Shown piece by piece: positions 1,019 to 63,565 of a DNA stretch of 64,000 nt (positions are counted from its first letter, which is position 1; each line of letters begins with the position of its first letter). The notes beneath the pieces are model-generated. The model ran no database searches. It had not been told where the DNA came from and saw nothing but the letters and a program-made list of their open reading frames with translations. The translations under genes and the position numbers were made by a program. The stretch is taken from the IMG/VR virus record IMGVR_UViG_3300046514_000858, positions 29,746-93,745 of that record. The stretch is one strand, 5' to 3'. Source of the DNA: a virus.

Positions 1019-1042
1019 ATTCCGTTTCCCGCGTCACTTTCC

Positions 1043-1069
1043 TGTTACGGCCGATACGGTGGGTCGTCT
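1043..1069 (+). promoter_or_regulatory. P-A promoter-like element
   Basis: TTTCC then TGTTAC at 1043-1048 and GGTCGTCT at 1062-1069, followed by TACTTCCGTGATGA. Same spacing as the other copies. Confidence 0.7.
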
Positions 1070-1079
1070 TACTTCCGTG

Positions 1080-12405: not shown

Positions 12406-12414
12406 CAAGAACGC
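12406..12414 (-). promoter_or_regulatory. P-B element (leaderless-type, minus strand)
   Basis: Minus-strand GCGTTCTTG, 5 bases before the ATG at 12400. It lies 11 bases from the plus-strand P-A element. Confidence 0.55.
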
Positions 12415-13893: not shown

Positions 13894-13902
13894 GCGTTCT
13901 TA
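13894..13902 (+). promoter_or_regulatory. P-B element, plus strand, divergent pair
   Basis: GCGTTCTTA, 5 bases before the ATG at 13908; mirror image of the minus-strand copy. Confidence 0.6.
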
Positions 13903-15025: not shown

Positions 15026-15037
15026 GTCCAAGATGGT
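15026..15037 (+). promoter_or_regulatory. P-C element
   Basis: GTCCAAGATGGT directly before the ATG at 15038 (5 bases after GTCCAAG). First P-C element of the head module. Confidence 0.6.
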
Positions 15038-19427: not shown

Positions 19428-19441
19428 GTCCAAGAGGATAG
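19428..19441 (+). promoter_or_regulatory. P-C element
   Basis: GTCCAAGAGGATAG, 2 bases before the ATG at 19444 (9 bases after GTCCAAG). Confidence 0.6.
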
Positions 19442-56929: not shown

Positions 56930-57034
56930 ATGTGCAGGACTGACGGGATCGCGTGTAAGACTGAGCATCCGGCCCGCATGACGGCATCCGCGGACTACGT
57001 GAGCGGGACAGCTCGTGCTCCTTTAATTTTTTGA
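56930..57034 (+). CDS. Doubtful small ORF (34 aa)
   Basis: AGGGG lies 7 bases before an ATG opening a 34-residue frame ending in TTTTTTGA. The product has no hydrophobic or charged pattern of note. Listed only because it fills a 150-base gap. Confidence 0.2.
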   Translation: MCRTDGIACKTEHPARMTASADYVSGTARAPLIF

Positions 57035-57042
57035 GGTGTGAG

Positions 57043-57468
57043 ATGGCGCGCGTGCAGACGATCATGACGACCGACCAGTACGAGAAGCTGGCGGCTACGC
57101 CGAGAGCCAAGCGCCCCGCGAAGGCGCGAGCCTTCAAGATGGTGTACGGCAACTTCTACTCGCACAAAGTGAGCCGCAAGGGCCACAACATCATGTATCG
57201 GATCGGGGAAACCGTGCGCAATCCGGACGGCGTAGACCGCGGAAGGTATCGGGAGTGCTCGTTCGGTCTCAACATTGCCTCCCTTCAGTGGCTGGCTCTC
57301 CACCCCCGCGCCAATATTTTGTCCAGCCATGCGACCACGCTCATGCTGATGGTCGAGTTCGATCCGCGCAAGGCTGTCTTCCCTGTCTACTCGGGCGGCA
57401 AGTTCCGCGTCGCCAAGCTGCGCGTGCTCGGGCTTGTCTCCAAAGGCACCGGCAAATTGAAGAGGTGA
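57043..57468 (+). CDS. DUF7666-like phage protein (141 aa)
   Basis: Pattern AFKMV..NFYS, Y-R-IGETV, CSFGLNI-x-SL, then LMLMVEFDPRKAVFPVYSGGKFRVAKLRVLG matches a common phage protein of unknown function with a C-x-x-GLH/N signature. Start at the ATG after GAGGTGTGAG; a TTG 12 bases upstream is in frame. Confidence 0.65.
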   Translation: MARVQTIMTTDQYEKLAATPRAKRPAKARAFKMVYGNFYSHKVSRKGHNIMYRIGETVRNPDGVDRGRYRECSFGLNIASLQWLALHPRANILSSHATTLMLMVEFDPRKAVFPVYSGGKFRVAKLRVLGLVSKGTGKLKR

Positions 57469-58046: not shown

Positions 58047-58787
58047 TCAGCGGTCGAGGAAGCTGATGATGTCGAGCGGGTGGACGGCGTAGTTGACGTG
58101 GGTGATCGGATGCTCGCGGTGCGGATCGACCAGCTTGACATGCTTCATGATCGCCACCAGAGTCCAGTGGCCGCTGATCTTCACCCAGCACCCGCCCCCG
58201 CTGTTGCCGTACGTGATCGGCGCGGACGTGCTGATCGACCGCATCTTGGCTTCCAGATCGGAGATGTAGCCCGCGGTGAGGTGTGCGGCGTCGACGAAGC
58301 CCGCACCATCCGGATGACCCAGCGTCGCCGGGTATCCCATCACGAGGCACGGCAAGTAGACGCAGATGTCCTGCCCGTACTGTCGCTCCGTCAGGACCCG
58401 CGCCACTCCCGGGAAGCCGGACTTGCCTTCGAGAAGGGCCAGATCCTTCACGACGTCAAATGTTACGATTTTCATTTGACTATTCCAATTTGAATGATAC
58501 ATTCCATTATGATACGAGACGGTCGCCTCGGTGGATCCGCGCACGACATGATAGCACGTCAGGACTCGCGCGACCAGATCATCTTGATAGACGACCACGC
58601 CGCTACCCCCGCCTCCTTCCGGCGTCTCGATCAGCACGGTTGCCCGGGCGATCTCCTTGTCAATCTGGAAGGCCGCCTGCACTTCGGCCGACGGACTCGG
58701 GCCCGTGATCACGGCACCCGCCCCGAACATCACAACCGACGCCAGAGCCATCGCCACGTAGAGCCAGTGGGCTTTTAGGAAATTCAT
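58047..58787 (-). CDS. Membrane-anchored trypsin-like serine protease (246 aa)
   Basis: N-terminal transmembrane helix (about residues 4-28, LYVAMALASVVMFGAGAVI). Chymotrypsin/HtrA-type fold with catalytic His80 (TCYHVV), Asp115 (VVKDLALL) and Ser196 (YGNSGGG). No PDZ domain. N-in anchoring would put the protease outside the inner membrane. Start after GAGGTG on the minus strand, 17 bases beyond a P-C element; single gene against the flow of its neighbours. Confidence 0.82.
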   Translation of the reverse strand: MNFLKAHWLYVAMALASVVMFGAGAVITGPSPSAEVQAAFQIDKEIARATVLIETPEGGGGSGVVVYQDDLVARVLTCYHVVRGSTEATVSYHNGMYHSNWNSQMKIVTFDVVKDLALLEGKSGFPGVARVLTERQYGQDICVYLPCLVMGYPATLGHPDGAGFVDAAHLTAGYISDLEAKMRSISTSAPITYGNSGGGCWVKISGHWTLVAIMKHVKLVDPHREHPITHVNYAVHPLDIISFLDR

Positions 58788-58797
58788 GATGCACCTC

Positions 58798-58811
58798 ACA
58801 ATTCCTTGGAC
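58798..58811 (-). promoter_or_regulatory. P-C element, minus strand
   Basis: Minus-strand GTCCAAGGAATTGT followed by GAGGTG and the protease ATG at 58787. Confidence 0.5.
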
Positions 58812-58973
58812 ATCGAGCATTCATATATCTGCAGTGAAAAATAGGTGTAACTAAAAAGGTTACACGAAGTCTCTGAATTATCGCTGTAGGCGCAACAACG
58901 GTAGTTACGGGTGGTGGGCAGCCGGGTGTTCCGGCTGACGCAGTTCTGATGGACAGGTAGAGGGAACAAAATC
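58812..58973. promoter_or_regulatory. AT-rich divergent control region
   Basis: Unusually AT-rich for this genome. GTGTAAC-TAAAAAG-GTTACAC (58845-58865) is a perfect 7-bp inverted repeat, operator-like. On the minus strand TTACAC and TATATG are 17 bases apart, a sigma70-like spacing. CAGCCGG-GTGTT-CCGGCTG (58919-58937) is a hairpin ahead of the sigma-like gene. Confidence 0.45.
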
Positions 58974-59534
58974 ATGGCCAATCCGACGAATCTTGGAGTC
59001 TGCCCGAAGAGTTCCAATTTGCACTCCGGCCCGATCCCGCGCCACGACTTCGCCGCCCTGCTGGAGTTCTACCGGCTGTACATCCAGAAGATCGCCCAGA
59101 AGCACGCCGGGCCGCACCCCTACTGCTCCATGGAGGACATCTTCCAAGAGCTGAGCATGGTGCTCTGGCAGGTCCAGCAGAAGTACCCCACCAAGCCCGA
59201 CTCGGAGTTCCATGACATTCTCGTCAGCAGTCTCATCAACAAGATCGTCGCCCACTTCCGGGTGAAGCGCGTCGGCCGGGACAACGCCATGGTCCGGCTG
59301 GACGCCGACGCGGGCGGCGACGGTTCCCACGGCTCGCGGCGCGACCCCTACCCCATCGTCCGGACGGAGCAGTCCGAGGACTTCTACCGCGCCGGGATCT
59401 TCGAGCTGGTCGACACGTTGCCGCCGGAGACGAAGCAGGCCGCGCTCGACGCGATGGACCCGGCCAACCGCGGCCATGTCGGCGGCTCCAAGAAGGCGTA
59501 CCATGTCGTGAAGAACGCACTCAATGGCGTCTGA
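58974..59534 (+). CDS. Sigma-factor-like protein (186 aa)
   Basis: Residues about 25-105 (HDFAALLEFYRLYIQKI, DIFQELSMVLWQVQQKY, FHDILVSSLINKIVAHFRV-K) match sigma region 2, the core-polymerase and -10-binding part, of small phage and ECF-type sigma factors. Region 4 is reduced: LPPETKQAALD and a short helix-turn-helix-like end. Comparable in size to T4 gp55 (185 residues), which uses promoters without a -35 box. Candidate reader of P-C or P-A. Preceded by TAGAGGGAAC. Confidence 0.72.
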   Translation: MANPTNLGVCPKSSNLHSGPIPRHDFAALLEFYRLYIQKIAQKHAGPHPYCSMEDIFQELSMVLWQVQQKYPTKPDSEFHDILVSSLINKIVAHFRVKRVGRDNAMVRLDADAGGDGSHGSRRDPYPIVRTEQSEDFYRAGIFELVDTLPPETKQAALDAMDPANRGHVGGSKKAYHVVKNALNGV

Positions 59535-59922
59535 GAACCCAGCGCGTCCCAACTGCTTTGCACGTCTGCACGATCCGCAGAACGGGTTGTGTCAGGCGTG
59601 CGCGGTCATGGTGACCTGCGGCGTCGCGCGCATGAAGACGTGGTTGCTTGAAGGTCCGATGCCGACGATCCGCACGCCGCAGGTCCGCGTCAACGACTGG
59701 CCGCCGGGCACCTGCCGCTGGGCCGCCCGGGAGGCGATCAACCGACTCGACGGCACCTTCACCGAGATGGACGTGATCATCCCGTATCACGCCATCTGCC
59801 GTTCGATCAAGCATCGCCCGGGTAACCCCGAGCGCACAATCCGCCGGGTCGTCTCGGATCTCGTGCGCGCAGGCGTTCTTATCAGAACAGCGAAGGCGAA
59901 GCTACAACATGGATCTCACTGA
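59524..59922 (+). CDS. Cys-cluster plus wHTH-like protein (132 aa)
   Basis: N-terminal C-x11-C-x2-C-x5-C (CFARLHDPQNGLCQACAVMVTC region), a spacing recalling iron-sulfur or zinc sites in phage regulators. The C-terminal half (ERTIRRVVSDLVRAGVLI) looks like a winged helix. Overlaps the sigma-like gene by 11 bases and the polymerase gene by 14, so it is likely co-regulated with both. Regulatory role is inferred. Confidence 0.6.
   Translation: MASENPARPNCFARLHDPQNGLCQACAVMVTCGVARMKTWLLEGPMPTIRTPQVRVNDWPPGTCRWAAREAINRLDGTFTEMDVIIPYHAICRSIKHRPGNPERTIRRVVSDLVRAGVLIRTAKAKLQHGSH
59873..59881 (+). promoter_or_regulatory. P-B element upstream of the polymerase
   Basis: GCGTTCTTA inside the end of the wHTH gene, 27 bases before the polymerase ATG. 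Confidence 0.4.
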
Positions 59923-62900
59923 TCAGGACTACACCGACCTGCACGTCCACTCGACGTACAGCCTCCTCGACGGTACCGCTGATCCTTCGCAGCTCCTCGA
60001 AGCGACCAAGAAGCTCGGCCGGAAGCAGATGGCCCTCACCGACCACGGGTCCATCGACGGCTGGCTCCGGTTCCAGAAGGCCGCGCAGAAGATGGGCGTG
60101 CAGCCCATCTTCGGATGCGAGCTCTACATGCTGGAGAATTTCGAGGAGCGCGAGTCTGGCAAGCACAAGAACCTTCACCTCTCGGCGATTGCCAAAACCC
60201 CGGAGGGCGCGGGCAAGCTGATTCAGGCGCTCGGCTACGCCAACATGGAGGGCATGGGCAAGCACGGCTTCGCCGCGCGTCCGTTCCTTCCGCTCGACTA
60301 CCCCATCGCCCACAACTGGGGTGGCGACGTGATCATCATGACCGGCTGCGCGAGCTCGCCGTTCTGGAATGCGGTCGGCGGGGACGAGCTGCTCGGATTC
60401 TACAAGGACCACTTCAAGGACGACCTGTACGCCGAGATCATGCCGATCCACGACTGGGTCGATCCGCTGCTGCCTCCATCCGATCCGGCCCATCTCGTGC
60501 AGGGCGCGATCAACCGGAAGGCTCTTGCGGCGTGCGACCGGTTCGGCATCAAGCCCGTCGTGACCAGTGATATCCATTACGTCACGCCGGAGGATGGCCA
60601 GTTCCACGAAGTCGTTCTTGGTCTCGGCCAGAAGTACATGACGTGGAACAATCCGAAGAGGTGGAAGTTCGAGACGCACTGCAGCTTCGTCCATACGGTT
60701 TCCGGCCTGCAGGAATCGCTTTTCAAGATGGGGCACGATCATGATCTCTCATGCGCCGCCATTCGGAACACGCGCGAGGTGGGAGAGAAGTGCTTCCACA
60801 AAATTCACCAGCCCACCATCAAGCTCCCTGCGGTCATCGGCGAGATGTCCGACGAGGAAGAGCGCGAGCGTTTTCTTCAGCTCGTCATGGCGGGTCTTCG
60901 GGCCAGAGGAGTCGCAGATCGCCCGGGATATCTTGAACGCGTTGCGACCGAGTACGACGTCATCGCACCGAAGGGCTTCGTACGATACATGCTCATGGTG
61001 TGGGATGTCGTCAAGTGGGCCAAGACCCACGGCGTGCTCATCGGCCCTGCCCGCGGTTCGGTGGGCGGTTCTCTCGTGGCTTTCGCCCTTGGGATCACTG
61101 ATCTCGACCCTATTGTCCACCGTCTGTGGTTTGAACGGTTCATCGACCCGGAGCGCAACGACCTCCCCGACATCGACATCGACATCGAAGATAGGAACCG
61201 GCACCTCGTCGAGCAGTACCTGAAGGAGAAGTACGGCGCGTACAACGTCGCGCACGTCTCCACTTTCTCAACCATGCTCGGGAAGACCGCCATCAAGGAC
61301 GTGTCCCGCCTGTTCGAGGTCCCACTCGTCGAAGCCCAGCGCATGTGCAACTGCATTCCCAAGATCCACGAGTCCGATGCGCGGGCCCACTTCACGATCA
61401 AGGACACCATCGAAGGGGGAGATCCCGATGCCAAAGCGTTCGCGTCCAAGTATCCTCATGTCGTTCAGCACGCGGCCCAGCTTGAGGGGCAAATTCGCGG
61501 GTGCGGCATTCACGCGGCTGGCTTTGTTGTGTCGGCGGATGATCTTAGAACGTCTGCGAGAGCACATCTTGTCACTCGACACGGCAAGGTCTCGATCAAC
61601 TGGGACAAGAACGACGCCGAGTCCATGGGATTCGTCAAGCTCGACCTGCTAGGAATCTCTACGCTTTCAGCGGTCGCTGAGGCGGTTCGCCTTGTCGAAG
61701 CGCGGCACGCCCGGAAAATCGAAATGACCGAGCTGCCGCTGACCGATCCCAAGACGTACGAGATGATCGGCCGGGGCGAGACGGCGACGTGCTTCCAGAT
61801 CAACACCGCGGGTACGACGAAGTATTGCAAGAAGCTGAAGCCCGACAACTTCGAGCACCTCGCGGCGATTACGGCTCTGTGGCGGCCCGGCCCTATCGCG
61901 TCGGGGGCGACCGAGATGTACGCCAAGTGCAAGAACGGCGAGGTCCCGATCTCGTACATCAACGACGCGTGGCGCGACATCACCGAGATCAGCTACGGCC
62001 AGATCATCTATCAGGAACAGATGGCCCAGATGCTGATGAAGCTCGCGGGCTACACGTTCGCTCAGGCCGACAAGGTCCGGAAGATCGTCTCGAAGAAGGG
62101 CGGCGTGCAGGCGTGGGACGATGAGGAACCGAAGTTCGCGGCCGGGTGCGCGAAGATGGGGCTCATCGATCAAGACTCCGCCCACAAGCTCTGGCAGGAG
62201 TCGAAGATGTTCGCCCTGTACGCGTTCAATCGCGCCCACTCGGTCGGGTACGGCATGCTGTCCTACTGGACCGCGTACCTCAAGGCCAACTACCCGGGTG
62301 AATGGCTCTGCGCATTCCTGAACTACGGCAACGCGGAGCGCGAGGAGCACGGCATCATGAATCGCGACGTCGCGCTCAAGGAGGCGCTGCGTCTCGGGAT
62401 CGACATTCTCCCGCCGGACATCAACAACAGCGAGGTCATCTGGGGCGTGGAGACGAATCAGTACGGGCGTTCCGTCCTGCGCGTCGGCCTGAAGGACGTC
62501 AAGTATCTCGGCGAGACCGCGGTCGAGGAGATCCAGAAGCTCAAGAGCCGCGTGAGGCGGATCGAGTCCATTGAGTTCTTCATGGAGAACGTCGACCGGC
62601 GCATCTGCAACAGCAAGGTCGTCAAGGCCCTCCTCTTCTGCGGCGCGTTCGATTCACTCCTTCCGCCGGAGGAGCGCACCCGCTGGATCAAGCAGTTCGA
62701 GCAGATGTACTCCACCTTCGAGCACGACAAGAAGCGGACCGAGCTCCTGCTGTGCCCCGAGCCCGACACCAACGCCGACGACATCATCGCGCGCGAGCGG
62801 AAGGTGTACCTGCGCTTCGATCCTCTGACACTGGACGGCGTGCATGCGCCCGAGCGGATTGCCAAGATCATCGGTGCGACGCTGGACCTCGATCTCGACG

Positions 62901-63565
62901 AGCCCGTCCTGCGCCGCGGCACGAAGACGTGGCTGGTTACCGACGCGATGGCCGGACTCCTGCCGGGTGCCAATGGCGTCATGTCCGGCGCTGAGGCAAA
63001 CATCTCCGACATCGTCGACAAGATTACCAAGTGCAAGCTGTGCGAGCTCCGAGATAGCTGTAAGAAACCAGTGCGGCCCGAGAAGGGCGTGCTTCGGGCG
63101 ATGATCGTATCCGAGACGCCCAGCACGTATGAGGACAAGTTCGGTCGGGCGTTGATCGGAGACTCCGGCGGCGAGTTCTGGCCGAGGCTGGAGCAGGCCG
63201 GGATCCTGCGCACCGACGTACACGTCACCAACGTGGTGAAGTGCGCCGCTCCGAAGAAGACCAAGCCCACGGCCGACCAGATCGATGGATGCATGCACCT
63301 CGAAGAAGAGATCAAGCGCGTGCAACCGCTGTGCATCCTCGCTCTCGGCAACCCCAGTCTCTACTGGTTCACCGGTCGCGAGGGCGGCGTCATGTCGGCG
63401 AACGGCCGGACGGAGTGGTCCACCAAGGCCAATGCGTGGGTCACCTTCTGCATCTCGCCGTCCAATCTCGTGTACGCCCGGGAAGAGGACGAGTACACCG
63501 AGCGGGCGGGGCTGCTCACCGCGGCCATTCAAGAATTCGCGCGGTGTATCGGGCAGTTCGTCTAA
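59909..63565 (+). CDS. dnaE: DNA polymerase III alpha (DnaE) fused to a UDG-like domain (1218 aa)
   Basis: PHP domain starts DLHVHSTYSLLDG (9-21) with TDHGS; polymerase C-family palm has GPARGSVGGSL and PDIDIDIED with catalytic Asp421, Asp423 and Asp425; fingers include FNRAHSVGYGMLSYWTAYLK. The OB-fold/tau-binding C-terminus of bacterial DnaE is missing. Instead, from about residue 1040, KCKLCELRDSC, SETPSTYEDKFGRALIGDSGGEFW, VTNVVKC and ILALGNPSLYWF match family-4/5 uracil-DNA glycosylases with a Fe-S Cys set. The usual GEAPG is SETPS, so activity may be altered. The frame is continuous across the junction. Confidence 0.9.
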   Translation: MDLTDQDYTDLHVHSTYSLLDGTADPSQLLEATKKLGRKQMALTDHGSIDGWLRFQKAAQKMGVQPIFGCELYMLENFEERESGKHKNLHLSAIAKTPEGAGKLIQALGYANMEGMGKHGFAARPFLPLDYPIAHNWGGDVIIMTGCASSPFWNAVGGDELLGFYKDHFKDDLYAEIMPIHDWVDPLLPPSDPAHLVQGAINRKALAACDRFGIKPVVTSDIHYVTPEDGQFHEVVLGLGQKYMTWNNPKRWKFETHCSFVHTVSGLQESLFKMGHDHDLSCAAIRNTREVGEKCFHKIHQPTIKLPAVIGEMSDEEERERFLQLVMAGLRARGVADRPGYLERVATEYDVIAPKGFVRYMLMVWDVVKWAKTHGVLIGPARGSVGGSLVAFALGITDLDPIVHRLWFERFIDPERNDLPDIDIDIEDRNRHLVEQYLKEKYGAYNVAHVSTFSTMLGKTAIKDVSRLFEVPLVEAQRMCNCIPKIHESDARAHFTIKDTIEGGDPDAKAFASKYPHVVQHAAQLEGQIRGCGIHAAGFVVSADDLRTSARAHLVTRHGKVSINWDKNDAESMGFVKLDLLGISTLSAVAEAVRLVEARHARKIEMTELPLTDPKTYEMIGRGETATCFQINTAGTTKYCKKLKPDNFEHLAAITALWRPGPIASGATEMYAKCKNGEVPISYINDAWRDITEISYGQIIYQEQMAQMLMKLAGYTFAQADKVRKIVSKKGGVQAWDDEEPKFAAGCAKMGLIDQDSAHKLWQESKMFALYAFNRAHSVGYGMLSYWTAYLKANYPGEWLCAFLNYGNAEREEHGIMNRDVALKEALRLGIDILPPDINNSEVIWGVETNQYGRSVLRVGLKDVKYLGETAVEEIQKLKSRVRRIESIEFFMENVDRRICNSKVVKALLFCGAFDSLLPPEERTRWIKQFEQMYSTFEHDKKRTELLLCPEPDTNADDIIARERKVYLRFDPLTLDGVHAPERIAKIIGATLDLDLDEPVLRRGTKTWLVTDAMAGLLPGANGVMSGAEANISDIVDKITKCKLCELRDSCKKPVRPEKGVLRAMIVSETPSTYEDKFGRALIGDSGGEFWPRLEQAGILRTDVHVTNVVKCAAPKKTKPTADQIDGCMHLEEEIKRVQPLCILALGNPSLYWFTGREGGVMSANGRTEWSTKANAWVTFCISPSNLVYAREEDEYTERAGLLTAAIQEFARCIGQFV

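Follow-up and report, generated by a model that had tools for sequence, protein, structure and literature searches.

A shortened ECF-type phage sigma factor and the single-box promoter-like motifs that it may read

Profile comparisons of a phage gene product give well-supported grounds for regarding it as a sigma-like protein of the sigma-70 superfamily with an ECF-type region 2. It is a genuine phage sigma whose general kind is known, found in an unusual setting, and this shortened ECF-kind factor probably steers host RNA polymerase to single-box promoters located directly before start codons. The gene lies in a window of 64,000 nucleotides, the whole stretch of DNA analyzed here, which comprises bases 29746-93745 of a virus record totaling 93,745 bases. 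Genes were called with our own script, and start codons are approximate. The features of the locus are as follows.

58974..59534, plus strand: ECF-like sigma factor gene, 186 aa, ATG start, region 2 and a vestige of region 4 (profile matches, ECF alignment)
59046..59306, plus strand: part coding for sigma region 2, residues 25-111, with 2.2-like DIFQEL and 2.3/2.4-like EFHDILVSSLINKIVAHFR (TIGR02937 match, ECF alignment)
59367..59531, plus strand: part coding for residues 132-186, which hold the conserved VRTE.SEDFYRAGIF stretch and the truncated region 4 (pair and ECF alignments)
59524..59922, plus strand: Cys-rich, probable winged-helix protein whose gene overlaps the stop codon of the sigma at its start (homologue at the corresponding place in a relative)
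59909..63565, plus strand: DnaE-like DNA polymerase III alpha with a C-terminal UDG (uracil-DNA glycosylase) domain (family matches, homologue in a relative)

No close relative of the virus was found in the phage collection, and the locus was common to two other records. In a 27,989-base contig the sigma protein is identical, and in a 96,810-base contig (∼96.8 kb; G001) its homologue (L006:5053-5625) is 44% identical, the Cys-rich neighbor 38% and the polymerase 69%, in the same gene order. The two phages are largely collinear, with 62 reciprocal best pairs. Searches of viral contigs (with the protein and with the pair as queries) and of genome contigs, and tblastn in phages, returned nothing beyond the identical (100%) copy and the 44% relative, so that the collections searched hold two distinct homologues. 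The placement described in the earlier note, next to a Cys-rich, possibly winged-helix protein and then the polymerase, thus recurs in the relative. The Cys-rich protein had no match in family searches; from the look of its sequence it is possibly a winged-helix protein, and it may be a partner of the sigma. Matches of the polymerase in more distant phages (L007, L008) also reach through the UDG part. Elsewhere in the window, 57031-57468 has a weak match to the RIIB lysis inhibitor family (2e-5). At the left edge of the window (G000:C1 29580-29830; L004:10080-10330) lies a strongly structured RNA-like stretch with a long closing stem and a folding z-score of -5, for which no Rfam match was found.

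The earlier note had read the 186-codon frame as a sigma factor with region 2 and only a vestige of region 4, and profile comparisons bore this out. Residues 25-111 matched the NCBIfam model TIGR02937 (sigma70-ECF) with an E value of 1.4e-5, a match below the model's curated cut-off; the relative's sigma matched this model weakly (0.033) and PHROG 1740, 'RNA polymerase sigma factor', at 5.7e-5 over residues 11-162. When the sigma pair from the two phages was aligned by hhalign with eight bacterial ECF factors, the probability was 94% and the score 52.2 over 121 columns, whereas none of 200 column shuffles exceeded 19.5 and the next best among all predicted proteins of both phages reached 26.7. 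As yardsticks against the same ECF profile, two proven phage sigmas, 7-11 gp47, which has region 4, and phiEco32 gp36, which is without it, scored 69 and 35, respectively. Region 2 alone matched the ECF profile at 88.7%. The alignment of region 4 was confined to 17 columns of its first helix, no helix-turn-helix was recognizable, and the pair has ∼12 residues fewer in the ECF alignment. The further claim, a likeness to T4 gp55, failed at the level of the family: the proposed check against both groups matched region 2 to ECF and not to gp55, with a profile of 7 gp55 proteins giving 0.1% versus 94% for the ECF profile, and the single T4 gp55 sequence likewise gave no match. The C-termini of the two sigmas, KNALNGV and RNKLNDL, show by eye no hydrophobic/acidic clamp-binding tail.

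Both phages keep the 2.2-like DIFQ(E/D)L and the 2.3/2.4-like EFH...N.I..HFR.K, including the N, H, F, and R residues of the -10-reading stretch. ECF sigmas grip the -10 box with the loop that joins helices 3 and 4 of their region 2. The loop between DIFQ(E/D)L and the EFH stretch is where the two proteins differ by a 7-residue insertion, the longer form being that of the relative. AlphaFold models built from the two sequences were poor (pLDDT 41 and 50), a Foldseek search with them yielded no significant match, and a PDB sequence search with the sigma yielded none. In a second alignment, residues 6-97 of the weak model best fit sigma region 2 of sigma28, sigmaB, SigW, and sigmaE, with Z values of up to 7.7, which for helical models is still under the tool's own caution limit. 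As far as such a model can be read, this fit is consistent with sigma region 2.

Both phages have three classes of promoter-like motifs, mostly before start codons. The earlier note had named P-A and P-C, the latter as a promoter with no -35 partner, and left both undefined; we therefore derived the classes afresh and paired them with these labels according to how the note describes them. The main sites are as follows.

1038..1071, plus strand: best class I site, TTTCCTGTTAC-N16-CGTCTTA (others in the window start at 76, 749, 3962, 4509, 6448, and 12421)
59873..59881, plus strand: class II site GCGTTCTTA ahead of the DNA polymerase gene (in the relative, too, 28 nt separate the scanned class II motif from the ATG)
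13894..13902, plus strand: class II site GCGTTCTTA directly before a start codon (others at 2530 and 8331 and, on the minus strand, at 12407)
15026..15032, plus strand: class III site GTCCAAG-N5-ATG heading the packaging/structural block (further sites at 19428, 20680, 21501, 24812, 38974, 39488, and 45958)
58805..58811, minus strand: class III site GTCCAAG, 17 nt upstream of the divergent protease gene (18 nt in the relative)

Class I is a two-box motif, TTTCCTGWWAC-N16-CGTCTYA, with 19 sites scoring >14 versus 1.0 in shuffles and a spacer of 16 in all. Its upstream box spans 11 bp, its sites lie mainly in the small-gene block and outside the structural block, and G001 has a related set. By their sequence the boxes look like ECF-type -35 and CGTC -10 elements. 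Class II is a bare GCGTTCYTA (13 sites versus 0.7 expected), in place of which the relative has CGTCCTA; two class II sites are shared at orthologues, which is not significant alone (p=0.09). Class III is a bare GTCCAAG, found mostly at structural genes and identical in both phages. It is the top enriched 7-mer upstream of genes (14 versus 0.8 expected and 19 versus 1.0 expected in the two phages), and it occurs in both at 6 orthologous pairs (p=0.0009). Upstream of classes II and III we found no clear conserved -35 box, and GTCCAAG had no upstream partner at all; in one phage, class II has a weak AT-rich stretch 13-17 nt upstream that probably reflects stop codons of the genes before it. Promoter-like motifs without a -35 box, as the earlier note had proposed, are thus present in the genome, one of them in the sigma's own cluster directly before the DNA polymerase gene. 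Class II has the bare form given for P-C and is without the conserved -35 of the two-box kind, and its equation with P-C is one of description only. The counts make the boxes real signals but do not establish promoters.

At near sites, the box ends 3-12 nt ahead of the start codon and often 5-8 nt, which leaves no room for a Shine-Dalgarno sequence. Such a sequence lies between motif and start at 27 of 36 distant sites versus 2 of 39 near ones. Many boxes lie 5-10 nt ahead of the start codon, which implies leaderless mRNAs, and in the simplest reading each would be a -10-like box with transcription starting at or near the start codon. GTCCAAG was also considered as a ribosome-binding site and rejected, because the motif lacks Shine-Dalgarno complementarity and because a separate Shine-Dalgarno sequence accompanies most distant sites. 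Sigma70-type promoters showed no excess over shuffles, so host reading of early genes via TTGACA/TATAAT is not supported.

The sigma gene has an upstream region with its own signals, listed here.

58845..58874, plus strand: degenerate class I promoter-like site GTGTAAC-N16-AGTCTCT (the relative has a comparable one)
58845..58865, no strand assigned: perfect inverted repeat GTGTAAC TAAAAAG GTTACAC (7-7-7), overlapping the class I-like site

In both phages AGTCT replaces CGTCT in this site. From a loose pattern, chosen after the sites had been seen, the two phages have expected counts of 0.030 and 0.024 per stretch, and the class I weight matrix found no site above threshold before the sigma gene in this phage and one weak site in the relative. 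The inverted repeat may be an operator. In both phages, the upstream stretch contains one of the lowest-GC 60-mers of the genome. Divergent from the sigma gene is a trypsin-like protease gene (58047-58787, minus strand), with the GTCCAAG box at a near-equal distance in both phages; the 60-mer with the lowest GC in the whole genome falls within this gene, at 58455.

A second sigma-like protein of 211 aa (54% identical in G001) is encoded outside the window (G000:C1:6946-7581; L003:6946-7581). It was the best of the phage proteins against gp55, with a score of 27.3 compared to at most 19.4 in 150 shuffles, and it ranked second against the ECF profile and matched a SigM-family model at 0.005. It has KIKNPTNYLFRVCFNAGINYYKKEAK in common with T4 gp55, as well as gp55-like 2.3-2.4 residues, and its gene follows the SbcD/SbcC (gp47/gp46) genes, near which T4 gene 55 also lies. 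These likenesses are suggestive of a gp55-like sigma, a better gp55 candidate than the product of 58974-59534. A match of this protein to Melnitz phage was judged to be due to chance. The next gene has a weak match to a PHROG late transcriptional activator (E=0.025), which was not seen in the relative's copy.

Beyond the designation 'sigma' we infer everything that follows, namely, core binding, promoter assignment, timing, and leaderless starts. The sigma would be an early product, expressed from a degenerate two-box or AT-rich promoter that lies 100-130 nt upstream. The ECF-derived protein, with region 2 and a region 4 stub, is predicted to bind host core RNA polymerase through region 2 and to direct initiation; having no -35 reader, it would direct the polymerase to promoters of one -10-like box. 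Of the motif classes it might read, the two-box class appears least likely because the sigma has no domain 4. Class II (GCGTTCYTA here, CGTCCTA in the relative) is favored on three grounds: early synthesis, a class II box ahead of its own cluster's polymerase gene, and the parallel change of reading loop and class II, the last being one comparison of two homologues. The sigma would thus be a middle-gene switch. Class III boxes would fit the second sigma-like protein, since class III is unchanged and the second protein keeps the corresponding stretch, and would be read late. The class II box before the polymerase is upstream of the SSB, UvsX, SbcD/SbcC, and second sigma-like genes, which are contiguous in the relative; with the second sigma-like gene downstream of this box on the circle, an early-middle-late cascade could run through it. 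We give about an even chance to this reading, in which the sigma directs host RNA polymerase to bare class II promoters of middle genes and the second sigma-like protein serves class III. A broader scheme is tentative and on balance somewhat doubtful: three leaderless promoter classes would share a GTC-type core, one two-box, ECF-like, and early and two single-box, each with its own reduced sigma (ECF-derived for middle genes, gp55-like for late ones), and the start codon would be the transcription start of many genes.

Other assignments of the same parts were weighed against the class II reading. The sigma might itself read class III at structural genes, alone or with class II, the second sigma-like protein being something else. 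No other motif is as strong or as well conserved as GTCCAAG, support for the second sigma-like protein is weak, and phiEco32 gp36, one region-2-only sigma, serves middle and late promoters (PMC8948821). However, class III is invariant though the sigma's -10-reading loop varies, and a second candidate with gp55-like 2.3-2.4 residues exists, so we hold this assignment to be rather unlikely. It is improbable that the sigma reads class I while the co-translated Cys-rich/winged-helix protein stands in for region 4 and makes the -35 contact. Such a split sigma would have parallels in the two-protein SigO-RsoA factor of Bacillus and in MotA-type activation. The two genes overlap and are adjacent in both phages, and class I has the 11-bp upstream box, invariant 16-nt spacing, and ECF-type -10 box that such a pair might use, but class I also has the look of an ordinary ECF promoter that a host ECF sigma could read, a class I-like site precedes the sigma gene and so would need another reader first, and the partner's winged-helix nature is judged from the look of the sequence.

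Least probable of all, and very unlikely in our view, is that the protein is no longer a sigma and acts as an RNA polymerase-binding decoy whose region 2 occupies the core and shuts off host transcription. The loss of region 4 and the modest conservation (44% versus 69% for the polymerase) would agree with a decoy, but the retained -10-reading N, H, F, and R residues would be needless in a pure core-blocker, and three promoter-like classes need readers.

Under the preferred reading, with the shortened sigma serving class II boxes, the region-2-only ECF sigma and the genome-derived boxes form a small testable pair for promoter choice without -35 contact, and the two related phages could show how box and reader may change together. 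If true, the leaderless layout together with a second sigma-like protein would place this virus among the few phages with two sigma switches on the host polymerase.

Among known systems, E. coli RpoE and B. subtilis SigW represent the group 4 ECF factors to which region 2 of this sigma matches (94%), but their feature of a region 4 helix-turn-helix reading the -35 box is absent from it. Salmonella phage 7-11 gp47 is likewise a phage-encoded ECF-like sigma (69 versus 52 here on the same profile) and, unlike this one, has region 4 and two-box promoters, GTAAtg-16-aCTA (PMC8948821). T4 gp55, which opens promoters via a bare -10 box with helpers (PMC2988020, PMC7892883), resembles it in having region 2 only and a similar length, whereas the sigma at 58974-59534 has no profile match to gp55 and is not beside gp46/gp47 genes. 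In layout the sigma resembles phiEco32 gp36, which has an ECF-like region 2 and no recognizable region 4, opens promoters via the -10 box alone without domain 4, and serves single-box middle and late promoters with starts 6-8 nt downstream (PMC8948821). Our sigma is also a region 2 without recognizable region 4, and the motif layout, which may belong to it, is similar, although hhalign against the single gp36 sequence detected no direct match (0.7%). The single-box logic is thus known from phiEco32; new here are the box sequences (GCGTTCYTA/GTCCAAG versus tAATGTAtA there), and this phage also differs in having boxes that abut start codons and a second sigma-like protein.
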